Assembly: GCA_036426205.1 (NCBI GenBank)
Contig: CM071573.1
Span: 71,956,580-72,020,579 of the forward strand
DNA: 64,000 bases
From: Ascaphus truei
Lineage: Eukaryota > Chordata > Amphibia > Anura > Ascaphidae
Direction of reading: 5' to 3'
Below, one piece after another: positions 4,350-62,730 of the stretch (its first letter is position 1; every line of letters starts with the position of its first letter). Both the position numbers and the translations under genes were made by a program. The notes beneath the pieces are model-generated. The model ran no database searches. It was not told the DNA's origin and was given only the letters and a program-made list of their open reading frames with translations.

Positions 4350-4639
4350 GGCTAGCCCGATCTCAATGGAAGTGGAGGCCCTTCCACTTCCGGCTCCGGG
4401 AGCAATCGCATGACGTGGAAGTGCTGCAGGTTTGGTTGCACTCTGTTGCTGCTGAACCCCAAGCACTGTAACACAATTTGCAGAGAAAACTGCTGTTTCA
4501 TATATATAATGTAACAAATATATAATGTAACATATATATATATAATGTAACATATAAAAGTGCACTCTGAGCATTTTCATTGGTGGCACGATAATGTGGA
4601 AATAAAACGTTCTGTTTTGTATGATAAGATTTAGCAAAT

Positions 4640-4800
4640 AGAAAAATTACTTGTGAGCACATTCACACATATCAGACAGGTCTGCAACCCTGCTTCTCAC
4701 CATTATCTCTTAGCATACCGTGCTTCCACTGCAGCCAGGGATTCTGGGAAATGACATGCAAATGAGCCCACAGTGTCACCTTTTGCTTCATGTCCTTTGT
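4640..4800 (-). repeat. GCTCATTTGCATGTC repeat family, copy (minus)
   Basis: On the minus strand it reads 'gctcatttgcatgtcattt', then 'cagtggaagcacggtatgct', then 'gggttgcagacctgtctg'. The same module occurs near 36.13, 47.19, 47.40, 50.31 and 62.6 kb. The copies at 47.4 and 50.3 kb are physically linked to a hammerhead-like motif, so this is probably a fragment of the same element. Confidence 0.65.
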
Positions 4801-4809
4801 AAGATAGAC

Positions 4810-6110
4810 CCTTATAAGTTCTTAGTATCCTTTTGCTAAATTTTTACTGCCCCCTCCCTCTCTGTTTCTAGTGGATAACACCAGCTACATTATCTTTTTG
4901 CCTAAATAAAGCCGCAGTTACGTCTGACATTAAATGAGGCCCAATGATAAAATGATGATTGTCAATGTTGCATGCGAGCTGTGTTCTATTTTTATGAGTA
5001 ACTGGGGCTCTGGCTGTGTGGATTTCTCTTGGCTGTGACATGTTTTTTTTTTAATTGAATCATGCTTATTTTATGTTGTGTAACACATGTTCTGATTGGT
5101 GTGTTCTCCCCTATACACCCTTACTTGATAAAAACACTACTTGGAATTAGTGACATTAATTAGCTTATATTAAATAAACTTTTTTTTTGTATTGAATGCT
5201 ATTCATATACACAGTTTTTAATTAATTAGGGATATTAAGGTTAGGATAAGAAATGATGAAAATATTATGTATAGGCTGACACTTTATTGTTGTATGCATA
5301 AAGCAAACACTGATCCATATTCCTTTGCACAGCTCTCTTTGCAAACATTAAGAACATAAGACCTATTAATTAAGTAATGGGACCCTGCAGTTTCAGCTCA
5401 CGGTTATGTAAAGCAACGCAAAGTATGTTTGCAACAAATCTGCAGACATTAATTCAGCATTCTGAGTAGCTATTTTTCTCACAAAGCATTTGGAGCCTAA
5501 GTCAGCAAATTGACTAAATTCACTTAGCGGAGTCAATTTACATTTTTCTGGTTTTGATTGAAGTTTCTGAACATTATCAAATGTAATGTTGCATTCTAAA
5601 CAGAACTTTACATGTTCCATAAATCCATATAATCCCTGGCTACGACAATACTAATTATCTCCAATAGACAATTATCCCTGACGCATAGATGTATCCACCT
5701 AGGAGAGGACCAGTAGGAGTTAACTAAAACAAGATACGAGATGATGACAAAGTCAGACTGAGTCTCCCTGGCACATCAGAATCATATTAATACAGACTAT
5801 GTAACTCACAGTAGCTGTATTAAGATCTGAATAAAGAAATGTATTTGATCAGACCTGCTTTTGATTTTTCTAAATAAACATGATAGATTGAGCATGCCAT
5901 ATTTGTCTAATTCTATTTTATTTCATTTAGCCAGTAACGCTCAGATCCACAAAGACACTATATTCACATAGGAGCAATCCCTAGGTGAACTAATTCCAGT
6001 GACATGTTTCAGGGGTCTCAGCTAGGTAATCCTTACCTTTTGTACCCAAATCTGACACCTACAGTATAAGTATCGTGAATTCATTTTTTTTAAATTTATT
6101 TAGAGGGTGT
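4810..6110. other. Apparently unique non-coding DNA
   Basis: AT-rich sequence without recognisable repeats, splice-bounded exons or long frames. The stretch around 4910-5040 has balanced composition and could be under constraint, but nothing in this window tests that. Confidence 0.5.
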
Positions 6111-11529: not shown

Positions 11530-12425
11530 ACTCCATAGAACATATAACGTCTCTTTGTCCAGTTCACAAATACAAAGGAGGCACCAGAGCGATGCACTCT
11601 GCTACTCCAGATGCAATTATCTACTTTAACCACCAAAATGTAAAGGTCCAGTTGTTCTCTACACGTAGATCAGCCATACGAAAGAAGGAGAAACAATAGA
11701 AAAAATGACAATCTGTCCATGCATTTCGTAAGTAAAATCTCTTTTCTTCTTTGCTGCCTCCTTCACTTTTAGTTCTATCATTCTTTTTCCCCCCTCCAAT
11801 GCCCTTGTCATTTTCCAACAACAATATCATGCTGATGTTACTGACAGGATAGATACACGAGCAGCCTTAGATCAATATTTGTGCAAAGCAGAAAGCCTGT
11901 GCATCTCAAAGCCACAAATTGACCTTTCTTCCCACATTTGCACAGGCCCATCACAGGACTTCTTCCAACACTATGGTCCCAGGAGTGCATTCATTTTATT
12001 AAACAGGAAAGGGAATAAGAAGACCAAGTCACAAAGACATCTTTCCTTTGTGTTTTCTCAGGTTAGATATAAACTGCTTATTAATTAGCATCTTAACCTT
12101 TTTTTTAAACAGGTTCAGGGGCCCTTGTCACTTTCAAGAAGAAAAAAAAAAAAAAAGAAGTGTGAAGGCTACAATGAATAAGGAAAGGGATTTAACAGGT
12201 GTAAGAGGATATGCTTTCTTTCAGGGAATACTACAGTATAAGTGTTGCGGTAATGAGGAATATGACAAATGTTCAAGGGTAAAGGGGTTTTTTTTTCCAA
12301 TTAATTTGAGATGTTACTTAGATATTTGGAAACATGTTTTCCAGCAGGGAATTTTACTGAGTGGATTTTTATTTGCTTGGATTTTTAAAACCCGTATGTC
12401 TTAACATCAGGATACTATTAACCAG
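11530..12425. other. No gene recognised
   Basis: Mostly AT-rich DNA with an A-tract at 12140-12156. The short frames on either strand show no family signature. Confidence 0.4.
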
Positions 12426-12604
12426 CTCTGTGTGGTAGAGTTGGAAACTACTTTTCCCCCACTACACATTTCACATTATACTCCCCCTTTCCCTTCCTCT
12501 CCTTCTTATCCTTCGAAGTTCATGCTGTCCGTCTCTTTTCTCCCCTTCACCTTCATCTTGCTGTCATCTATGACCCCCCTGGACCTGCTGTACCTCTCAA
12601 TTTC

Positions 12605-13030
12605 TTGACAACTTTGCCACCTGGCTTCCTCACATGCTGTCTTCTGACAGCACCTACTGTCATCCTGGGAGACTTTAACATACCTATTGACAATCATAAT
12701 GCCACTTCAGCCGCCCATCTCATCTCTCTAGGCTCCTCCTATGGTCTCTCCCAGTGGACCACCTCTGCTACTCACTGCAATGTAAACTCTCTTGACCTGG
12801 TTTTCTCCCACTTCTGCTCCATCTCAAAATCCTCTAACATGCCTTTCCCTCTCTCTGATCATCACCTCCAAACCTTTAGCCTCACTCTACCCTCTGCACC
12901 CTCCACAGCACCTACTTCCACAAGCACATACAGAAAACTACATGCTCTAGACCCCCTTCAATTTTCAACATTTTTACAACCTCTCCCCTCCCATCTCTAC
13001 CTTTTCCTGCCTTCACCTAGGAATCTCTAT
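12605..13030 (+). pseudogene. LINE apurinic endonuclease domain remnant
   Basis: The open frame contains VILGDFNIPID, the conserved GDFN endonuclease motif, about 23 residues in, and later PLSDHHL, the conserved SDH active-site motif. Between them 'NSLDLVFSH' fits the usual 'S.LDLIFT' segment. In autonomous LINEs this domain nicks target DNA to start reverse transcription. The upstream part of the domain is frame-shifted or missing, and the frame is cut by the MITE at 13033. Confidence 0.8.
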
Positions 13031-13032
13031 AC

Positions 13033-13214
13033 CAGGGGTGGGCAAACTGGGGGGCGTGGTGGTTGCAGAGGCCTTGGGCTCTTCCTCAAGGCATTTAAAT
13101 GCCAGGGGACCGCGTGAGGCCTCTGTAACTCACTTACCATGATTCAGCCGGCATTCAAGTCAAATGATGCAGCGGGGTCACGTGACATTGCATAATTTGA
13201 CACCGGCACCCCTG
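13033..13214. mobile_element. hAT MITE nested in the LINE, perfect TSD
   Basis: A 182-bp element from 'caggggtgggcaaactgg' to 'accggcacccctg', flanked by identical CTCTATAC at 13025-13032 and 13215-13222. The central TA fits the Buster-type preference. The GC-rich interior is non-coding and the LINE sequence resumes directly after it. Confidence 0.9.
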
Positions 13215-34599: not shown

Positions 34600-36110
34600 A
34601 TATATATTGTTTATAAGCTACCCCAGGGGACCAGACATTTATGTGTGGGATATACATATTAGAGGGGTCCGCAGTTGGTTGCAAAACCAGCCGGTCAACC
34701 TTCTGTATACCGCCAGGCTGCTCCCACACTAGGGGGGAGTCAGGAGACTCAGCTTGCAATCATTAACCTCTGAATGTCCGTCATCGTTTTGCATCATTTA
34801 TAAATGGACTATATATTCCTGGAATGACAATCTGTAGCACATGAAGAGTTGTGGGGGCTCGTCCCTTTCAACATTGTTTCTATTCTATTTGCTAAATCAG
34901 GTTAAAGCTGCATAAATCTCAGTGACAAATATCACAGATTACGTAACACAGGATGTGTGTGCATTCTGTCTTCAATAAAGTGTATCAGCAAAAATGATAC
35001 GTTTGCGGTGATCATGATAGAGAGGAAATAAAGATATTCTATACGACTGCTCCCTTAAACGAGCAATACAAGCAATATTTTACATGCGTTTTTAAAATAA
35101 ATAAATCTGTTCTGAAGTATTTGATAATACTTACTACCTTTTTTAAATTATTTTTTTTATTCAACTTTCAGTGCCATTTTTTTTGGTTACTTACGTTTTA
35201 ATTAATCATTTTGCAGAGTTTGGGGAAGGGGATACATGCCATTTTGAATGAGTTTTACTATACTGATAATCCTTTGCGTTCTACAGAAGGTTGTAAACAC
35301 TTTCCCAGCAGTGCAAGATCTTTGTAACACTTTCCTGTTTGTGATAATTTGTTGCCAATATTCCCAGCAGTTTGAGCTGCAAACTGTAACAATAGATAAT
35401 GTTACCGTAGTAATATAAGAATACATTGTAGCTGTTGAGTAACATTGACTGAAGGATTGATTTGAAACTGAAAGGCAGCCATTTAGTGAACCCTGGGAAG
35501 CAGGATTTTGCTGATCGACCACAGGAGAACTAGTCGATCGGCAGATTAGGTAATTCGTTTTCAATAAAGATAATCAAAGTCTGCATACATTAAAACAAAA
35601 ACAAATATTTTTTTAAAGATGCTTGGATTGCCTTTTTAAGAGAAGAATTCTTTTAAAAGGAGGTTCAGTTTGATAGTAATGAAAACTAGTAGTGCTCCAT
35701 CTGTACATTATTTTTGATCAGCCATGTACTGTAGGATTTGTCCTTTAAATGTCTTGGTCCTGATTGTTATACAGGTTACAATATGCAATTCCTTAACTGT
35801 AAATCAGTATCTTAGAGACTCTGCTCCTCTCTCCTTCATTGCTCTGACCATCTGATTCAGCTGCCTTCCACAAGATCCGCATCAATAACTGGTTTAATTT
35901 ATTGAGCAATAAATGTTCATTAATGCAGTAGTTACAAAGCCATTACAATGTAATTATTGTTTAATTAGATTATAACTTATGGGATATCCTACAAAGTGCT
36001 TATTGCTTATGTAATAAGCTAAAACATAAAATGTACAAAGTAATTGATTGTCAAAATCCTCAAGCAGATGTGTTTTTAAAGACAGGATTTGGAAGTTTTA
36101 AGTGTATGGC
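34600..36110. other. Apparently unique AT-rich DNA, possible conserved element
   Basis: No repeats recognised. The stretch 35820-36010 is rich in TAAT/ATTA cores ('gtttaattagattataac', 'tgttcattaatgcagtag'), the composition often seen in developmental enhancers. Conservation cannot be judged here. Confidence 0.3.
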
Positions 36111-36119
36111 AAACAAAAA

Positions 36120-36250
36120 TGTCACTTGTGAGCACGTTTGCATGTCTCAAACAGGTCTGCAACCCTGTATTTCCCTATCCTCTCTTAGCATACAATGCTT
36201 CCACTGCACCCAGGGATTCTGGGTAATGACATGCAAATGAGCACTCGCAG
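36120..36250 (-). repeat. GCTCATTTGCATGTC repeat family, copy (minus)
   Basis: The plus strand reads 'aggtctgcaaccctgt' ... 'gcttccactgcacccaggga' ... 'gacatgcaaatgagcac', the reverse of the 50.31-kb copy. Confidence 0.7.
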
Positions 36251-39484: not shown

Positions 39485-40410
39485 TCCAAGGTATGCGTAA
39501 AACCCAGAGGAAATTCCTTTGCATACCAGGGTAGCATATGGCCATAAAGGCGACCCAATGTCTAGGACTTAAGTATGGTTCAAAGGACTTTGTCACCTCT
39601 ACTGTTTACATGAGGGCGGAGATTACTCAAACCAGAGCAGTCTTCAAGTGTTCCAGTTCACACCTCACAACAAAGAATTTCCTGCCAGGAATCCAATCTG
39701 GTAGACTAGCTGGCATTCCTGATGCAGAGGAGGGGTTACAGAAATGAGACCCCAGAGCTCTACTGCGCATGTACCAGCTAGCAGGGGGGCATGTATCAAA
39801 TTGTGTTCCCACGTTAATGAGTGGCTAGAGTTACTTGAAAACCAATCCACTGTACTTAAGGTTAAGGATAGGGCCACAAAAGGTATATAATCTGTGGTCA
39901 ACCCTTTATCCTTTGTCTGTTCTATACCATCTTGATTGCTGAGAGAAACGCTATGCAATGTCTTCATGCCAGAGGTCTTTCATGTCTTTGGTGTCTTGAT
40001 GACTATGAAGAGTGCTGTATGAACTGCCAGTCCAGATATGACTGCTTCATCATTTCCATTTTAAGTAAGTGTCTATATTTTGCCTGTTATTTGTATATCT
40101 GATGTGTTCACCTTTATCAAGGAATAAATTATATTTTATCATATCTTAAGTCTCGTCCCAGTTCAGACCCAGTTATAAATATATATTATCTTTTTATATA
40201 TATTTGTGTGTAAATTACAGCCTGCCATAAAGTCACCGTGACAATCCCCCAACCCTAAGTAAGTGTTACCTTCTTGCCTGTTAATTGTACTATATTGCTG
40301 TATTCACCTTTTTAAGGAATACATTATATTTTATTATATCTAAGCCTCGTTCAGTTCAACCCAGATATTTGGTGTTCATTATATCTTGTCATAAGCTACC
40401 GTGACAATAT
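39485..40410 (+). mobile_element. LTR-like region with duplicated polyadenylation-side module
   Basis: A TATA-like 'aaaggtatataatctgtgg' (39870) is followed by two diverged tandem modules, 40063-40243 and 40257-40408. Each runs from 'aagtaagtgt' through 'ttcacctttttaaggaataca' to 'ccgtgacaat'. This resembles an LTR R-U5 region duplicated by unequal exchange. No gag-pol is attached. Confidence 0.45.
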
Positions 40411-40439
40411 ATATATATATATATATATGAGCTGACTAG

Positions 40440-40760
40440 CAATGCTTCATTACCCCGATGAAGTTCTCATACTAGGAACGAAACGTGTAGGGTTTTAACT
40501 TGTGTAGACCTGAAGCGCGTTCACCAATTCTAACTGCCCCAGTACCATTGACCTAAGAGTAGGAAAAATAGCGGTGGGACCGGAATAAAAACAACAGCTG
40601 ACCGATTTCCCCACCACCACCTGACGTCACAAAAACGGGACTTTGGGCTCCTATCACGAGATCCAACTGCTGGAGTGGTAGCACCGCTGATGGACGCATT
40701 GGACGTGAGTGGAGGACGTTGTTATTTCCTTTCAATTGCCCGTGCAGTGGTTAAGGGACT
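40440..40760 (+). mobile_element. Retroelement tail with hammerhead-like motif
   Basis: ccgatga, a, gttc-tcatactag-gaac (a 4-bp stem), gaaacgtgtaggg (40454-40490). Only U4 of the CUGAUGA box is changed. It follows a (TA)n run and continues into GC-rich sequence. Confidence 0.5.
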
Positions 40761-40944
40761 TTGAGCTTTGATATATGCACGCATGGGCAAGGCCATTGTT
40801 TGAAAGAACTTAAGACACCTGCCAATCACAGATTATCCCATGGTCCAATCAATCAATCACATAGAGTCAAACTAAACAATGAATGGAGATTCCACGAAGT
40901 GAAAAACCGGTGCACAGCCAAAAGAAGCAGCAAGAGTTGGACTA

Positions 40945-41060
40945 AGTGACCATAGAAAAAGTTTTATTGATTAAAAAAGCATGATGGTAGAGTCCTGGCG
41001 GATCCTCTTACGCGTTTCACGCACGAAGCACTTTATCAAAAATAAACTAAACAATGAGAA
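40945..41060 (-). mobile_element. Retroelement tail with hammerhead-like motif (minus)
   Basis: The minus strand reads ttgataaa, gtgc-ttcgt-gcgt (a stem with G-U pairs), gaaacgcgtaagagg (41010-41045), then 'aatcaataaaactttttct' and 'atggtcacttagtcc'. It lies just upstream of, and opposite to, the Penelope-like coding remnant at 41.5 kb. Confidence 0.5.
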
Positions 41061-41499
41061 ATAAAAACATAAAGGTATAAAATTATACAAATAATCATAA
41101 AAGGCTAACAATTTAATAGAATGAGAGTATAAAACAATACCATAAATGTATTGCTCAATATTAAATGAAGATTAAGCATTGAGGGAGGCACCGCTCAGCT
41201 TGCAAATTAATATGTTATGTACTAGAGGGGTGCTTAAGGGAATGTGCACTATATGAAGACAGAGGAGAAAAGAATCCCTGTTGTAAGCACTCTACCTCTA
41301 CTGATATAAATAATAATTAGTAATATACTTTTAATATTTTAAAGAAACAGCCTGAGATGACTAATAGGTATAAAGGGATATTCCCTCCTTTCATGCATAT
41401 TCTGCAGAGAAGCCTTCTATCCGCATAGCTGTCTGCAGATATAAAAAATATCAAGTTAGGACAGTTTCATTGTCTAAAAATAAACTGTTCTAGGGAGAG

Positions 41500-42364
41500 C
41501 AACTTTCTTTGTCAATCGAAGACTCTCGGTGATAAATTCACTGCTAAAGGTTACGAACCAAAACTTATTACAGATTCTCTAAACAAAGTTTGGGCTTTAG
41601 ATAGGTCCTCTTAGCTTATTAAGTCCAAGCAAAATAGAAAATCGCATTTTGGTTATGGTGAACCTAGGAATTTGGCGGATAACAATTCCATAGCTCCGAA
41701 GTTCATAACCACTTACAATCAATACTCCAGGTCCATTCGAAGTATTCTGAATGGTCACTGGAATATATTAAAGTGTGATCCTCATTTAGGACCTATACTT
41801 CCGGAGAAAGCTCCTATCATTTATAGGAAAGCCAGGAACATTAAGAGTACCCTGGCTCCCAGTAAAATTAGATCCACTGATTCATCGGCAACTGCCGCCT
41901 CTGTGAGCCAATTGGGTAATCACAGGTGCGGCAGAGGTCGCTGCATCACTTGCAAGCATTTAGTCACCAAATCCAACTGTGTTTCTTTCCAGAAAGGTAA
42001 TACACACCAGGTCATGGGCAATATTAATTGTCTGAGTACTTATATTGTATATTTGATATTTTGTGGTTGCGGCCAGCAATGTGTCAGTCGCACCACACAA
42101 CCTCTCAGTACTCGCTTCTTAGAGCATAGGAGGAATGTTGTGAATGGTAATATTTCCCATAGTGTGTCTAGACATTTTAAATTAATACATAATAAAGATC
42201 CTATATCTATGACCATTACGGCTTTGGAACACATTTCACCTTATGATCTGGGAGGTGGCTGCTTTACAGCCCTTTGCCGAAGGGAAACGTTCTGGATCTA
42301 CCAGTTGGGTACTTTAACCCCTGGTGGTCTGAATGAATGTTTGGATACCAGTTCCATAGTGTAG
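41500..42364 (+). pseudogene. Penelope-like element, linker and GIY-YIG endonuclease remnant
   Basis: The frame is open from about 41615 to the stop after 'LDTSSIV'; an in-frame TAG at 41612 separates it from upstream coding (KGYEPKLITDSLNKVWALDRS) that belongs to the same protein. Segments in order: FITTYNQYSRSI, the end of the reverse transcriptase; HWNILKCDPHL and APSKIRSTD; a cysteine linker CGRGRCITC; and the endonuclease YIVYLIFCGCGQQCVSRTT...RFLEHRRNV, ending ETFWIYQLGTLTPGGLNE. The YIG of the second motif is CVS here, so catalysis is probably lost. It differs from the two other Penelope copies and represents a separate lineage. No methionine starts the 230-residue open part, consistent with 5' truncation. 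Confidence 0.85.
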
Positions 42365-42369
42365 TTATC

Positions 42370-43020
42370 CTTCTTCCTCTGCTGGTCCCTGTAGTTGATT
42401 GTACTTGTCACAGTTATCCTCTGTATCCTCATATCTCTCTCATTCTCTGACCAATTGTTTATATATAATTGATTACATTTGTTTGTGTATATGGAGCATT
42501 TATGTGTGTATAGTTTTTTTTTTTTTTTTTTAATAGAATAACACTATACAGGGTTTTTATTGTTCCACCATGAGAAAATAATAGAAACTAGGATGATGAT
42601 AATATTAATAATACAAATAATAATAATAACAATAAAATGATTATCATTATAAATACAAAACACATAGCCTTCTTTTATACTTTGTATACTGTTTATGTGT
42701 GGGTGTCTAGATCCCCGAATTGAGTTTCATCTCTTTCAGAAGCTTCTTTATTCTTTTATCTGTTTTGCACATGGGATGTTATAGTATGATTAAATGTATA
42801 AGGAATATATAGTTTGTAATTGCAGTGTTATAATCATTTAGTATATTATTATTATTGTACCAGGTTATATATCTTTCCAATGAGTATTTGTTCAATTGTA
42901 TTCCCTATGTGTAATTTTATTGATTTTAATTTTAATTTTATCAGTACTTTTATTAAGATCAATTTGTAGTATTTGTTTTATTATCACCCGTTATGCTATA
43001 TATATATATATATATATATA
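42370..43020. other. AT-rich 3' flank of the Penelope-like remnant
   Basis: Includes an 18-base T-tract (42514-42531), AT-rich sequence with ATAATA runs, and a (TA)n run at 43000-43020. No gene seen. Confidence 0.4.
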
Positions 43021-43024
43021 AAAT

Positions 43025-44002
43025 CAAAAAATAAATAGATGATACCGTTCTGTGGCTAACGAAATGCTTTTATTTGTGCGAGCTTTCGAGATACACTGAT
43101 CTCTTCTTCCGGCGATGTTACAATGAATGAAGCAAGGATAACTTAAAAACAGTGTCTCTTGGAATGTTATCTGTTCTTGTCCTTCCCCCGTGTGGATGTG
43201 TTTTATGGCTAGAGGTGTCAAAGGGTAACTGAAAGCAAGTGAAGAAAGAGTGTGTATGTGTATCAGTGTGAATAAAAATGAATGGAGAGCCACAGTATAA
43301 ACAGTGCTCTACACAAGGTGTGTGTGGAGTGAGAGGGATATAAATGGTGTGGGTGGGTGTGGAAATGTGAGAGTTTGTAGCACAACTAAAAGTGTGTGTG
43401 GATACTATGTGGTCCCTATTGGTGTATATGGATGGAAAAATAAGGAGTATTAGTATGTGTGAGAGACAGCTGTGTGTGCATACATATAGCACAGTATGTA
43501 CAGACATGGCCTTTAGCGCTCATGGGAAGAGAGTTCGCTAGTGTCAGTAATGACTCATAAAATTTCGATCTCTGTTTAGGCCACTGCTAAGTGTCCCGAA
43601 CAGTTGCATAAATTTGTATTCATGCAACCGTCTCTCTTTCGGGGTTTTAAGATTACCTTTGAGTATGGCAACCCTCAGATCGTTCATCTTATGGCCAGAG
43701 TCAGAGAAATGTTCGCCAACAGGACTGTCTCTTGTTCCGCGTGTGATGCTGTGGCGATGCAGGTTCATTCTCTTGTTTAGCCCCTGTCCTGTCTCACCTA
43801 TGTAGTAGCAGCCCCCTGGGCATTTCATGCACATGATGAGGTACACGACATTGCTGGAGGAACAGGTGAACCCTCCTCTGATTTTGTATTCCCGATTCTT
43901 GTGTGGTATTTGTATTGTGTCCGCTGTGTAGAGCATTGCGCAGGTTTTGCATCTTGGGTCCTGGCATGGTTTTGTCCCGCATTGTACTGCTGTATATATA
44001 TA
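43025..44002 (-). pseudogene. Penelope-like element, intact GIY-YIG domain, 5'-truncated (minus)
   Basis: The minus-strand frame (43544-44020) encodes CQDPRCKTCAML, the cysteine linker, then SSNVVYLIMCMKC and CYYIGETGQGL, which keep both halves of the GIY-YIG signature. Next come KRMNLHRHSI with the conserved Arg and His, GEHFSDSGHKM, and ERRLHEYKFMQLFGT with the catalytic-type Glu, ending in GLNRDRNF. The endonuclease half is therefore intact, while the reverse transcriptase is missing because the copy stops at a TA-rich junction next to the hAT element at 44003. The 3' region (43030-43500) contains 'gcgagctttcgagatacac' and pairs with the plus copy at 36.5-37.56 kb, forming a 6-kb-spaced inverted pair. 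Confidence 0.85.
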
Positions 44003-44206
44003 CAGTGTTCGACAAATCACCCAAAAATCTACTCGCCCACCCCAAAAATCTACTCGCCACCTAGTCTCGCCCCCAACCCCGCCCCTAGTCCCGCCCCCAA
44101 CCCCACCCCTAGTCCCGCCACCAACCTTGCTTTAAATTAAAATTCATTTAATAAATTCCTAGTCAGAACAACATTCGTTTTTGACATACATGTATTTATT
44201 GTATTA

Positions 44207-44909: not shown

Positions 44910-44964
44910 GAGAGTGTGGGGGGGAGAGAGAGAGAGAGTGTGGGGGGAGAGAGAGAGAGTGAGG

Positions 44965-45050
<86 letters not shown>

Positions 45051-45255
45051 AGAGAGGGGCGAGAGAGAGGGGAGAGAGTCAGAGAGAGGGGAGAGAGACA
45101 GGGAGAGGGGAGAGAGAGGGGAGAGAGACCGAGAGGGGAGAGAGACCGAGAGGGAGAGAGACCGAGAGGGGAGAGAGACCGAGAGAGGGGAGAGAGACCG
45201 AGAGAGGGGAGAGAGACAGAGAGAGGGGAGAGAGACAGAGAGAGGGGAGAGAGGG
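44910..45255. repeat. GA-rich tract with (GA)n core
   Basis: A (GA)n core at about 44967-45046, with gaggggagagagac-type units on either side. Confidence 0.95.
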
Positions 45256-45770
45256 TGACTGACTGGGTGGGTGACTGACTGACTGGGTGACTGACTGGGT
45301 GGGTGGGTGACTGACTGACTGGGTAACTGACTGGGTGGGTGACTGACTGACTGGTGGGTGACTGACTGGTGGGTGACTGACTGGGTGGGTGACTGACTGG
45401 GTGGGTGACTGACTGTGTGACTGACTGGGTGGGTGACTGACTGGGTGGGTGACTGACTGACTGGGTGACTGACTGGGTGGGTGACTGACTGGGTGGGTGA
45501 CTGACTGGGTGGGTGACTATCTGGGTGGTGACTGACTGGGCGACTGACTGACTGGGTGGGTGACTGACTGACTGACTGACTTGGTGGGTGACTGACTGAC
45601 TGAGTGGGTGGGTGGGTAACTGACTGACTGGGTGGGTGACTGACTGGGTGACTGACTGACTGGGTGGGTGACTGACTGACTGGGTGACTGACTGGGTGGG
45701 TGACTGACTGGGTGGGTGACTGACTGGGGCAGGGGTGACTGACTGACTGGGGCAGGGGTGACTGACTGAA
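45250..45770. repeat. GACTGACTGGGTGGGT minisatellite
   Basis: About 35 variants of a 12-16 bp unit (gactgactgggtgggt, gactgactgggt, gactgactggtgggt). The plus strand repeatedly offers GGGTGGG pairs, enough G3 runs for long-loop quadruplexes. The Pro/Ser/Gln/Val-rich minus-strand frames are artefacts of the repeat. Confidence 0.95.
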
Positions 45771-45794
45771 TGGGGGGGGACCTCTGGTGTCACA

Positions 45795-46650
45795 CACATT
45801 CTGACACACACACACACACAACCCCATCCTAATCCCCACTACACACCACAACACACACACCACACACCCACACACACACACCCCTCCCATATCACCACAC
45901 ACCACAACCACACACACACACCGCCACGAGCAGGCTGGCCCATATACACACACACTCGACTGACCGCTCCTTGACCTGCACCATACCACACACACACACT
46001 CTCCCATACACATCACATCTCCCCATCACACTACAGACCAGTACTCTCCACCCCCACCATCACACCACACTACACACACACTCACACCACCAAAACACCA
46101 CCACACTCACCACACACCCAACCCCACACCCCCCACACCCACCACACACCCACCACCCCCAACCACCCACCCACCACAACCCCATCACTCCCCTATAACC
46201 ACTCCCCACCCCATATCACGCCCACGTCCACCAACACACACTCTCCCAACCCTCCCATCCCACTCCCAGCCACACCACCCCCCCCCCCGACTACTCGCCA
46301 CTATACTACACACACTTACACTCTCCATATACTACACACACACTCTCCCATATAAACACACACCCCTCCCACCAACTCCCATATACACATCAACACACGA
46401 CACAACACACCATCACACACACTCTACACACAATCACCCTACTCTCCCATATACCACACACCACACCTCTCCTCATACTATCACACAACCCCCTCTTCCC
46501 AATCAACCACACACCACAACACAAATCTCCCATATATACCTCCCCACACAACACCACACTCTACCATATATAACACACACTCATCCCATATACACCACCC
46601 ACACACTAACACAAGTAACTGCCACTACTATATATACACACACACACACA
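45795..46650. repeat. CA/C-rich, G-depleted tract (about 850 bp)
   Basis: Irregular ACACAC, CCACACC and CCCACC runs with short tctcccatat interruptions; G is very rare on the plus strand over most of the tract. It adjoins the minisatellite and appears to have grown from mixed CA and CCA slippage. Confidence 0.9.
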
Positions 46651-47157
46651 CACAGGAGGGGGGCGGAAGGCCGCGACCAGCACCTCCACGCTCCCCCCCA
46701 ACCCCCCCGTGCCCATCTCCCACTCGCGGGGACCTTGGGGGATATCCCCGCTTCCATCTTCCACCACGCGGTCTGACACGGGAAGCGGGGACCTGAGGGG
46801 ACACGACGGAGGCAGAGGGCCTGCGGGGGTGAGTGCAGAGGGCATGGAGAGGCAGCAGGACGGAGGCAGAGGATACTTACCGTGTCCAACGATCTGGAAA
46901 AAGAATGGCTGCACATTGGGGGCCGGGTCATATAGAGCCTGGCCGCGCACCCACAAAGCCTGGGAGCACCCGCCAATCAGCTGTCAGGCAGGGGGAGGTT
47001 TTTTTTGTTTTTTTTCAGTGCGCGCATGGAAAATTTCAGCGCGAGCAGGGAAAATTTACAAAAACAAACACGTGTGCTGCTTGGGCCAATATTTACTCGC
47101 CCGGAGGTTAAATCCACCCGCCCCAGGCATGTAAATGTATAGGATTGTCGAACACTG

Positions 47158-47182
47158 TATATATATATATATATATATATAT
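47158..47182. repeat. (TA)n microsatellite
   Basis: A TA run directly abutting the hAT terminus. Confidence 0.9.
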
Positions 47183-47189
47183 CAAATGG

Positions 47190-47345
47190 AAATATTACTG
47201 TGTGCTTATTTGCATGTCAGACAGGTCTGCAACCCTGCCTTTCACCATTATCACCCAGCATGCAGTGCTTCCACTGCAGCAAGTTATTCTGGGAAATAAC
47301 ATGCAAATGAGCACTCAGTGCCACCTTTAGCTTCAAAACCATATC
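47190..47345 (-). repeat. GCTCATTTGCATGTC repeat, inverted copy
   Basis: The plus strand reads 'acaggtctgcaaccctgcct' ... 'acatgcaaatgagcactcag'. It faces the copy at 47401, making an inverted pair with a spacer of about 60 bp that holds 'gcacagctatatatagc'. Confidence 0.8.
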
Positions 47346-47400
47346 ACATGGTCCCCTATAAGCTTATGCTTGCTGCATTGCACAGCTATATATAGCACAG

Positions 47401-47680
47401 CACTGAGTGCTCATTTGCATGTCATTTCCCAGAACCCCCTGCTGCAGTGGAAGCGCTGTATGCAGGGCGATAATGGGGAAAGACAGGGTTGCAGACCTGT
47501 CTAAGACATGTAAATGAACATACAGGAATATTTACAGTTGCTTTATGCTTTACTGTGGAGGGTTTTAGTCACTTTTTTTACCCACCATATCCTTAATAAT
47601 TGTGGTGATTACCTAGTCTATAGTCTCAAAACCAGCTTAGCCATTACAACCAACCCCACACTGATGAGACCCATAAAGGT
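47401..47680 (+). repeat. Hammerhead-bearing repeat, left copy (interrupted)
   Basis: Positions 47401-47601 match 50308-50507 closely, starting 'cactgagtgctcatttgcat' and ending 'ccttaataatt'. The left copy continues through 'gtggtgattacctagtcta' to the ribozyme half at 47652-47680, where a retroposon has inserted. Left and right copies together imply a tandem unit of about 410 bp. Confidence 0.8.
47652..47680 (+). ncRNA. Type I hammerhead ribozyme, 5' half (split by insertion)
   Basis: aaccccaca (stem I 5' strand), ctgatga (47661-47667, the exact core box), gacc (stem II 5' strand), cataaa (loop II), then ggt, the start of the stem II 3' strand. The remainder lies at 50171-50199 beyond a 2.5-kb insertion. 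Folding of the two halves is described under the 3' half. Confidence 0.7.
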
Positions 47681-47862
47681 CGAAGACTGCTTTTGGGGGG
47701 GCACTCCATCTCGAGCTGAGAGGAGTGATCCTGAGTGAGCGGTTCTGAGCGAGCAGATACGGAAGTGAGGGGCTGGCGCCTTTGCCTGGTGGGATCGCCC
47801 GAAAGGGCTTAACCCACATGCTGCAATGAGGGTGCTGCACCTGAGCTTATTCAAGGCGGACG

Positions 47863-48947
47863 ATGGCTTTCGGTGGGATGAGGAATACAGTCCGGTTCCT
47901 AGTCGAGGAAGCCGAGAGAGACCGCGTGAGACTGCAACATGTGGTGGAGAAAGTCCTTGGAGAGATGCTGGACGAGACGAAGGTGTACTGCCTCCAAGAC
48001 TTCCCGAGGCAGGGCATTTATGACCTGACTCTGAATACAGATGCGGATTGCTGGAACATCTATGAAATGTGCCGTGAGAGGAACGAGGATCCAAGGCTGT
48101 TGGGAATCAGCGTGGCCCCAAGCTTTATGCTGGAGGACAAGATCCAAGGCTGTTGGGAATCAGCGTGGCCCCGAGCTTTATGCTGGAGGACAAGCCGCTT
48201 ATTGTACATATGTATAACCCTTTTGTACAGAAGGAAGACATTGTGTGTTTCCTGAGGAGATATTGTTTTCTGGTAAGGGGAGGAGAAATGTTAAGAAACG
48301 CTTATGGCTTTTTTAACGGAAAACAGCGTTTTTGGGTGCGTTTTAAGCCTGACCCAGAACGAGGAGGAGGAGTAATGCAACCGCCTGCAAGTTTTGCCAT
48401 TGGTGGGGAAAGGGGTTTCTTAAACTACCCTGGCCAGCCGGTTTATTGCTGGAATTGTCACAAATATGGACATATCAAGGAGGAGTGTGACAAAGTTGGG
48501 ACAGTATGCCGCAATTGCGGAGAAGAAGGACACACAGCAATGGCTTGTCGAGTCCCAAAAAAGTGCGACTTGTGTGGGGAACGTGGACATTTTGCACGGC
48601 AGTGCACAAAAAGGAAATCTTACGCCCAAGCGGCAAGGGGTAGTGAGCCTGGAGATACCGCAGAGTTTGTTGGACTGATCTTTGGGAAGGGACAGACGGA
48701 AGAGGGAAGGATGGACTTACAGGAGGGGGGGATCTCAGAAGTGGAGGAAACCCCTGAGTTTCTACAAGGAGAAACTTCAGGAGAAGAAATTGAAGAAACT
48801 TTGGCGGGTTCTACAAGTGATAGCTTGGAGAAAAAAGAGGAAGATCTATCCCTGGACTCCTTGGCCCAGAAACCGGAGGTGGGGGGAGGGGGGAGACGGG
48901 AGCAGTCCATCAGAAAGATGCGGGGGAGGGGGAAATACGGTCATTAA
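47863..48947 (+). pseudogene. ZCCHC3-like / LINE ORF1-like protein with three CCHC zinc knuckles, frameshifted
   Basis: The upstream part (47863-48140) starts MAFGGMRNTVRF, a plausible initiator, and reads through QHVVEKVLGEML and DADCWNIYEMC. A 53-bp tandem duplication (48088-48140 and 48141-48193) then shifts the frame; without it the two parts would be in one frame. The downstream part to 48947 carries RRYCFLVRGGEML and KQRFWVRFKPDP, then three CX2CX4HX4C knuckles: CWNCHKYGHIKEEC, CRNCGEEGHTAMAC and CDLCGERGHFARQC, about 18 residues apart, followed by an acidic tail. Such proteins bind nucleic acid. The layout resembles amphibian proteins named ZCCHC3-like and ORF1 of Tx1-type LINEs; I cannot decide between them. 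Inactive because of the frameshift. Confidence 0.8.
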
Positions 48948-48949
48948 GT

Positions 48950-49900
48950 GTGGTGGAACCTAGCTGGGCGGAAAGTATGGAGATTCAAGATGCACAGAGG
49001 GTGAGGGAAGGTCCCCAAGATGTCTTGGAGAAGGAAATGGAAATAGGAGGGAAAAAAGCTCAAAAGCGTAAAAATCTGCAAGGGATAGAAACAAAGGAAG
49101 ATAAGGATAGCCAGAGTAAAGTGGAGCCTAGAGAGAAAGGTGTAGAGGGTAAAGTTGGAAAAGTATCAGGTAAAGTAATCTAAAAGAGAAAATGGTACAT
49201 TTTGAGGACGCAGTGGGAGATGTTCTATTTTGGGTTGGTATTTTTCGGAAGCAGCATGGGGGGAGTAGTGAGGAACAGATAGTAGAAAGATTAGAAAAAA
49301 TGATGTACCAAAGAAAACAGCTGACAAAAGAGCAATATGAAGAACTAAAAAAGGAGCATGTGCAGTGGGTTAAAATAAAAGAGGCTAGGGGAGAGGTGAG
49401 GGAGAAGGAGAGTAGCGAGAGCAATAGCTCGTCCCCACAAAAAAAAACAGATAAGCGTGGAGGGAACTAAAGCTAAAACAGTAGAAAAGAGGGAAAAGGG
49501 GAAAAGTGAGAATGACAGCTTGTCCTCACAAAAAAAGTCAGATAAGCGTGGAGGGAACTAAAATACCGAGAAGTGTAAGTGGAGTAAGTGGGAACGAAAG
49601 TGAAGAAAAGGCAGGCAAAAAAGGGATTGTACAGGCAAAAGAGGAAAATTCTGCGGGAGGAGCACCCAGGGAAAGGATGAAGTAGGGCTTACAAAGGTAG
49701 AGGTTTTGCACAATCGACTGGCGAGGGGATTTGGGCGGAGATATTGGGACGTGAAAGAGGCAAGGGACGGGTATGAAAAAAGTGTGAGGTCTGGAGTCCA
49801 GCTAGAGGAAAATAAGAGAGGTTTGGAATGTATGGAGGAAGAATTAAAACAGATGATCGTATCACTTGAGACTAGAGAAAGGGTTTTTGTTTTTAAATGA
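48950..49900 (+). pseudogene. Downstream Lys/Glu-rich coding remnant of the zinc-knuckle element
   Basis: Three consecutive frames (48950-49183, 49192-49470, 49706-49900) encode highly charged, probably coiled-coil sequence such as EEQIVERLEKMMYQRKQL and EEELKQMIVSLETRE. A partial duplication of roughly 88 bp around 'cagataagcgtggagggaac' occurs at 49450 and 49538. It is most simply the decayed C-terminal half of the same protein. Confidence 0.5.
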
Positions 49901-50170
49901 AAGAATCTTGAAGTATATGGTTCTTATCTTTGTATGATGGTTTGGTTATAGGGTTTTTTCGTAAAGTTATGTTTTTTTTTTCCCCCTTCTGAAAAGTTAA
50001 TATATGTTTTGGAGAATGTACGAAAAGCTTAGTGTAGGACTTGGGAAGTAATTCATGCTTAGGTATTATGGTGTTTTTTTTTTTTTGCAATGTAAGGAAT
50101 GTATAGTGATATTTTCTGTTTATTACTGGTTGTAATTAAGTGAATCGTTAATAATACTTAAAAAAAAAAA

Positions 50171-50199
50171 AAAGGTTGAAACATGTCTGTGAGTGGGTT
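50171..50199 (+). ncRNA. Type I hammerhead ribozyme, 3' half (split by insertion)
   Basis: aaaggt duplicates the end of the left half, then t, gaaac (50178-50182), at, gtc (50185-50187), tgtg-agt-gggtt (50188-50199). Read against the left half: stem I pairs acac with gtgt-type partners (tgtg) for 4 bp, then a 3-base bulge (agt), then 5 bp (aaccc with gggtt). Stem II pairs gacc with ggtt (one G-U). Stem III is only AC/GU with a 2-base loop. GUC is the standard cleavage triplet. Core boxes CUGAUGA and GAAA are exact. The very short stem III may require a dimeric form, as described for newt satellite ribozymes. The present genomic copy is interrupted. Confidence 0.7.
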
Positions 50200-50501
50200 T
50201 AATGGCTTTGCATCTCATTCCAGCCTCTGTCTAAAAGCTGTGTTTAAAACAGCATGCATTGGCTTGAGGATCTGCTTGTGTAATACGAGCTTGAGACAAA
50301 AGATGGCACTGAGTGCTCATTTGCGTGTCATTTCCCAGAATCCCTTGCTGCAGTGGAAGCGCTGTATGCTGGGCGATAATGGGGAAAGACAGGGTTGCAG
50401 ACCTATCTAAGATATGCAAATGAACATACAGTAATATTTACAGTTGCTTTATGCTTTACTGTGGAGGGTTTTTGTCACTTTTTTTACCCACCATAACCTT
50501 A

Positions 50502-50507
<6 letters not shown>
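50200..50507 (+). repeat. Hammerhead-bearing repeat, right copy
   Basis: It continues from the ribozyme 3' half through 'aatggctttgcatctcattc' and 'gcatgcattggcttgaggat' to a second copy of the GCTCATTTGCRTGTC module (50308-50507). It stops at a (TA)n run exactly where the left copy would continue into the next ribozyme. Confidence 0.8.
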
Positions 50508-50559
<52 letters not shown>

Positions 50560-62170: not shown

Positions 62171-62555
62171 ACTGTTATGAGGATATTTTTCCTAACTTCA
62201 GCCCAGTCCCCATGCATGAATAATTTTTAAAAAAAAAGGCAAATGTATTTACTTTTATATAAGTCAATTTTACATTATAAGAGCATCAACCAAGCAAAAT
62301 AAGTACCTTTTGGTTTTCTATTGTCAGTAGAACAATGGTGAATAGAAATTAATCTTGTTGTAAGTAACCCTGGATTAGATTTTTCAGGTAGTATGATGGG
62401 CAATTTAGCAATTAGCAGTTAGCACACCATTCAATTTCAATATGCAATTAAAGAAGAAAACAATCAGTAATAACCATTGCTGAAAAACACACATTATCTA
62501 AGTTATGGTTGGTAAAAAAGGGAGAAAAACCTTCCCCCATACAGTGTACAGTAAA
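62170..62555. other. No gene recognised
   Basis: AT-rich sequence; nothing assignable. Confidence 0.45.
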
Positions 62556-62559
62556 TAAA

Positions 62560-62730
62560 AATATAACTTGTGAGCACATTCACATGTTTAGGACAGGTGC
62601 TCATTCACACGTCTCAAGAAGGTGACACTGTGTGCTCATTTGCATGTAATTACCCAGAATCCCGGGCTGCAGTGAACACATGGTATGCGAAGAGGTAATG
62701 GTGAAAAGCCGCATTGCTGATAAATTCTTC
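62560..62730 (+). repeat. GCTCATTTGCATGTC repeat family, copy
   Basis: 'actgtgtgctcatttgcatg', then 'tacccagaatcccgggctgc' and 'aatggtgaaaagccgcattg'. Diverged from the 50.31-kb copy. Confidence 0.65.

Follow-up and report, generated by a model that had tools for sequence, protein, structure and literature searches.

A host repeat in the 64,000-nt window of Ascaphus truei DNA that we analysed is probably, at a rough probability of 0.78, what remains of a non-LTR retrozyme of the amphibian type, truncated, partly dimeric and split by an L1/Tx1-like poly(A) retroposon whose insertion would have ended its activity. The locus appears to be the well-preserved wreck of an element whose kind is known, and not a new system.

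Rejoining the retroposon flanks recovers a type I hammerhead motif

Removal of positions 47681-50176 from the window gives a 71-nt joined site in which the core of a type I hammerhead can be read, comprising CUGAUGA, a stem II formed by GACC and GGUU with the loop CAUAAA, GAAA, ACAUGU and the predicted cleavage point GUC^. The parts of this site and the insert between them are located as follows:

47640..47660, + strand: stem I 5' strand, GCCATTA, 5-nt bulge, AACCC, CACA (from the letters and the pairing script)
47661..47680, + strand: left half of the hammerhead core, including the left copy of the target-site duplication (TSD) at 47675-47680 (from the letters and the descriptor); CTGATGA 47661-47667, stem II 5' arm GACC 47668-47671, loop CATAAA 47672-47677, GGT 47678-47680
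47681..50176, + strand: poly(A) retroposon; with one TSD copy included, 2,496 bp
50174..50187, + strand: GGTTGAAACATGTC, with the stem II 3' arm GGTT, GAAA and ACATGT, a palindrome that would form stem III or the dimer helix; cleavage is predicted to follow GTC at 50187
50188..50206, + strand: stem I 3' strand, TGTG 50188-50191, bulge AGT 50192-50194, GGGTT 50195-50199, TAATGGC

In the joined site, stem I consists of 4 bp, a 3-nt bulge (AGU), 5 bp, a 5-nt bulge on the opposite strand and 7 bp; in this outer helix, beyond the 5-nt bulge, GCCATTA (47640-47646) pairs with TAATGGC (50200-50206). A script verified every one of the 20 pairs in stems I and II. The site has the core that defines RF00163 (CUGANGA...GAAA...NUH, stems I-III, stem I open), with a stem III of 1-2 bp. 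From the letters alone, the first-pass annotation had described a type I hammerhead whose stem II is split by a poly(A) retroposon, a reading that the anatomy, a match to our descriptor and the ORF1 domains of the insert all support. Each of the hammerhead letters it placed is present in the sequence, and the stem I that it paired across the insertion (4 bp, a 3-base bulge and 5 bp) is correct and can be extended by the outer 7 bp.

The duplication and tail that it reported are likewise present, as a 6-bp TSD and A14. AAAGGT, found at 47675-47680 and again at 50171-50176, is the longest exact duplication at the junctions when lengths up to 12 are tried, and 14 A precede GGT at the right junction, 3 of them belonging to the AAAGGT of the TSD. 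A longer, decayed TSD (CGAAGACTG.. versus TGAAACATG..) was rejected; since its score was equalled by 954 of 5000 random pairs, only the 6-bp duplication was retained.

In the joined site, a single A-U pair closing a CAUG loop makes up stem III, and the sequence ACATGT is identical to its reverse complement. Stem III had been singled out as the weak point of the hammerhead. Its shortness is real and has a counterpart in the axolotl hammerhead HHR_Amex1, which is published with a single-pair helix III and a palindromic tetraloop (PMC7229834, from the available text). By this analogy, a stem III this short is no defect, being the dimer-type form published for amphibians. According to the same text, 6% of a monomer with a helix III of the HHR_Amex1 type was cleaved in 1 h, and dimeric constructs were cleaved far more. 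The joined hammerhead may have been able to cleave itself.

The insert is a probable L1/Tx1-like remnant

The insert is laid out on the + strand as a G-rich 5' end, ORF1-like pieces, A14 (50160-50173) and the right TSD copy (50171-50176). Two of its pieces encode ORF1 domains:

47881..48099, + strand: ORF1 N-terminal piece, RBD_ZCCHC3_1st, 45.7 bits (cut-off 27), the match covering residues 7-79 of query 47863-48252
48078..48944, + strand: open frame with the second ORF1 piece, RBD_ZCCHC3_2nd, 87.2 bits (cut-off 27), and three zf-CCHC stretches

The frame change between them falls at a 53-bp tandem duplication (48088-48194). In a protein search with ORF1, a single candidate of 696 passed E 0.001, a shark ZCCHC3-like protein with 40% identity over 56% of the query. 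Above cut-off, the five translated + strand pieces of the insert that we scanned matched only ZCCHC3 RNA-binding and zinc-knuckle domains, and no ORF2 domain (APE endonuclease or RT) was found in them.

As is typical of L1/Tx1-like elements, the insert is flanked by a TSD (AAAGGT twice) and ends in a poly(A) tail (A14); it also shares with the L1/Tx1 non-LTR retrotransposons a zinc-knuckle ORF1, which we take to mark that group. Because no ORF2 domain occurs in the pieces scanned, we term the insert an L1/Tx1-like remnant and not an L1/Tx1 element and, as neither an RT nor an endonuclease is among these pieces, we read its putative clade from ORF1 and the tail. The insert fits a remnant of an L1/Tx1-like retroposon with a ZCCHC3-type zinc-knuckle ORF1, and its putative clade is to be understood in that sense. 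The Tx group is described as target-specific in the available part of PMC3747384, but a single insertion such as this one cannot show target specificity. We consider it very unlikely that the insert stems from a target-specific Tx1-group lineage which lands at CAT/AAAGGT in loop II/stem II of a multicopy retrozyme and in this way systematically disarms its ribozymes. Recurrent use of this landing site, if it occurred, would represent a new kind of mobile-element conflict.

The host repeat resembles an amphibian retrozyme

With the insert removed, the host repeat is 829 bp long. It is a partial direct dimer with a 410-bp period, bounded by (TA)n on either side, in which a single hammerhead lies between two direct arms spaced 410 bp apart:

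47158..47182, no strand: (TA)n microsatellite, left edge of the host repeat
47183..47328, - strand: inverted partial arm copy, 87% to 50299-50446
47400..47601, + strand: first direct arm, 202 bp, 95% identical to 50306-50507
50306..50507, + strand: second direct arm, which stops before a second hammerhead
50509..50536, no strand: (TA)n microsatellite, right edge of the host repeat

This copy amounts to about 1.5 units plus the inverted arm, and its left end (47183-47540) is an imperfect palindrome of 358 bp at 77%. Within 47600-50260, reading frames that lie wholly outside the insert reach at most 76 aa. Since the second direct unit ends at (TA)n before its hammerhead, the copy probably held only one hammerhead even before the insertion, and would therefore at best have cleaved weakly alone already at that time. 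The earlier proposal that the host repeat could once encode a hammerhead motif fits this anatomy.

We used the build of metazoan non-LTR retrozymes, as given in the available text of PMC7229834, PMC7761336 and PMC4918200, as the model for the host repeat. Such retrozymes are ORF-less tandem repeats of ~150-400 bp; the host repeat, with its 410-bp period, lies at the upper edge of this size, its unit of 410 nt being slightly longer than the ~170-400 nt of published retrozymes. It departs from them in having an inverted arm and one hammerhead only, where a complete tandem copy has a hammerhead per unit and at least two in all. We speak of a truncated remnant of a retrozyme, and not of an intact member, because the second unit stops before its hammerhead. 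When the 410-nt unit was folded as a circle, its energy was -129.6 kcal/mol, against -102.6 (sd 5.8) kcal/mol for shuffles (z -4.7), and none of 200 shuffles was as stable. The paired fraction of the circle was 64%, compared with 62% in shuffles, and is below the 'above 70%' stated in the part of PMC4918200 available.

Among known systems, the ~330-bp axolotl retrozymes with HHR_Amex1, of the newt satellite DNA lineage, have the same type I hammerhead with a one-pair helix III and palindromic tetraloop. Both they and the host repeat are tandem and a few hundred bp long (PMC7229834, available text), a likeness of architecture. In contrast to the axolotl elements, the host repeat has a 410-bp unit, carries one hammerhead in ~1.5 units plus an inverted arm, and is interrupted by a retroposon. 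Hammerheads in interspersed repeats of a frog, as here, are also reported for Xenopus tropicalis in the available text of PMC3088659, which we liken to the host repeat by description.

As a retrozyme, the host element would have been a non-autonomous retroelement of ~410 bp per unit whose RNA bore a type I hammerhead of canonical form. Where copies with several units were intact, hammerheads would pair via the palindrome ACAUGU into an extended helix III, and the paired hammerheads would cut after GUC, freeing unit-length RNA that could then be ligated into circles and reverse-transcribed, plausibly by Penelope-like enzymes; apparent Penelope-like remnants elsewhere in the window fit this view. 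The L1/Tx1-like poly(A) retroposon would later have inserted at CAT/AAAGGT, within loop II and stem II, and by placing the hammerhead halves 2.5 kb apart would have ended the activity.

Relatives of the arms occur elsewhere in the window at 4633-4818, 36100-36246 and 62493-62720; they match the arms and a short stretch next to them, and none covers the hammerhead stretch. Pattern scans for relatives in viral and genome contig collections, where such a repeat is not expected, found 0.

Alternative explanations for the hammerhead

As the joined site is a post hoc construct, the motif could in principle be a chance resemblance produced by joining two flanks. Its folding is consistent with such a view, in that the energies do not single out the hammerhead: the 71-mer has a z of -1.54, 19 of 200 shuffles fold equally well, and hammerhead pairing without stem III (-17.1 kcal/mol) lies 2.6 kcal/mol above the MFE of -19.7 kcal/mol. 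There is also no Rfam match at the gathering score anywhere in the uninterrupted window. However, the join was set by the TSD and not picked, and the joined site matches a descriptor, itself written post hoc (CTGANGA, GAAA and H17, with 4 bp in stem I and minima of 3 and 1 bp in stems II and III), that found only 12 matches in 282.88 Mb of simulated sequence (one-strand, first-order Markov), or a chance rate of ~9 in a million per 205-nt site. As the descriptor did not require the additional 5-bp and 7-bp helices of stem I, the true rarity is greater than this simulated figure. For comparison, among 20000 dinucleotide shuffles of the joined site (205 nt), 140 contain bare CTGANGA..GAAA. We regard chance resemblance as extremely improbable, and equally so a ribozyme that is still active in discontinuous form, in which loop II would span 2.5 kb and the cut would fall immediately downstream of the poly(A) of the retroposon. 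Such a ribozyme would have all of its catalytic letters, because through the duplication the right side also keeps a GGT, and the mammalian Clec2 hammerhead is discontinuous, with 150 to 1500 nt in helix I (PMC6155905, available text). Against this, when the interrupted transcript (2,701 nt) is modelled, 13 of the 20 long-range hammerhead pairs (4 + 5 in stem I, 4 in stem II) have a probability of 0.0 to four decimals, the left TSD copy competes by closing a local stem II with a probability of 0.87-0.88, and even the uninterrupted form would be expected to act as no more than a weak monomer. Given the zero probability of these 13 pairs in the model, the ribozyme of the interrupted copy is most likely dead.

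Less remote, and still unlikely, is that the hammerhead is part of the pseudo-LTR of a truncated Penelope-like element and that there is no separate retrozyme family. Apparent Penelope-like remnants lie ~3-7 kb away, also between (TA)n tracts (40407-40428 and 42997-43020), and 23 bp of the left flank of the host repeat (47145-47167) recur, identical and inverted, at 43993-44015 beside a Penelope-like remnant, with (TA)n ending both. Penelope elements form tandem or partial tandem copies, one of them with a hammerhead at the pLTR-ORF junction, and their hammerheads, as here, are of type I and sit within partial tandem retroelements (PMC11167929, available text). Unlike that of the host repeat, however, Penelope-like hammerheads are minimal forms attached to an RT/GIY-YIG ORF, described in the available parts of PMC6155905 and PMC7761336 as missing helix III or tertiary contacts. 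The joined-site hammerhead has the canonical long, bulged stem I, the 829-bp repeat has no BLAST match in 40-44 kb, and a 410-bp unit is too small for an RT-endonuclease ORF. The shared 23 bp may instead indicate that the host repeat and the Penelope-like remnant landed in similar target sequence.

Relation to published amphibian hammerheads

Hammerheads in amphibian repeats, including those of Xenopus tropicalis, have already been published (PMC3088659 and PMC7229834, in the text available). A retroposon-split amphibian hammerhead was not among the titles and abstract openings returned by our literature searches, which were not aimed exactly at this point and left subscription papers mostly outside; within these limits, the present copy and its interruption seem to be unreported. 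With this locus, the known amphibian-type retrozymes gain a probable further member whose unit is longer. It also illustrates that TSD-guided rejoining of flanks can recover a hammerhead from a nested insertion, which scans of uninterrupted sequence with Rfam or a descriptor miss; our strict descriptor had no match on either strand of the uninterrupted window.

Other features of the window

On the left half of the interrupted copy, Hammerhead_1 scored 17.1 bits (E 1.7; gathering 34), and two unrelated Rfam families score about equally on the same 2,661-base stretch. This match prompted us to consider a new hammerhead formed with the 5' end of the insert (GGT-CGAA), which was rejected: in its alignment, four pairs of stems I and III are non-standard, and the score is below threshold.

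Two apparent Penelope-like remnants precede the host repeat. One (40407-43020, + strand) lies between two (TA)n tracts; its piece 41615-42361 is Penelope-like by a weak Pfam match, below cut-off, and its two best protein matches are uncharacterized Ascaphus truei proteins at 59% and 52% identity (of 147 candidates, 3 passed). Inspection by eye shows a minimal motif resembling a hammerhead at 40453-40492 (CCCCGATGA..GTTC..GAAC-GAAACGTGTA-GGG). It was not reported by Rfam, which gave 5 matches in 40400-44200, no hammerhead among them. The other remnant (43040-44131, - strand) includes an ORF at 43547-44131 that weakly matches GIY-YIG, below cut-off (E 0.0016). On the minus strand, hammerhead-like strings were also seen by eye at 43080-43109 and, separately, at 41010-41037. 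Elsewhere in the window, an ORF at 12422-13114 resembles a non-LTR endonuclease (Exo_endo_phos, E 0.0081, below cut-off), and 44924-46608 consists of ~1.7 kb of low-complexity tandem arrays that are GA, TGAC and CA-rich.
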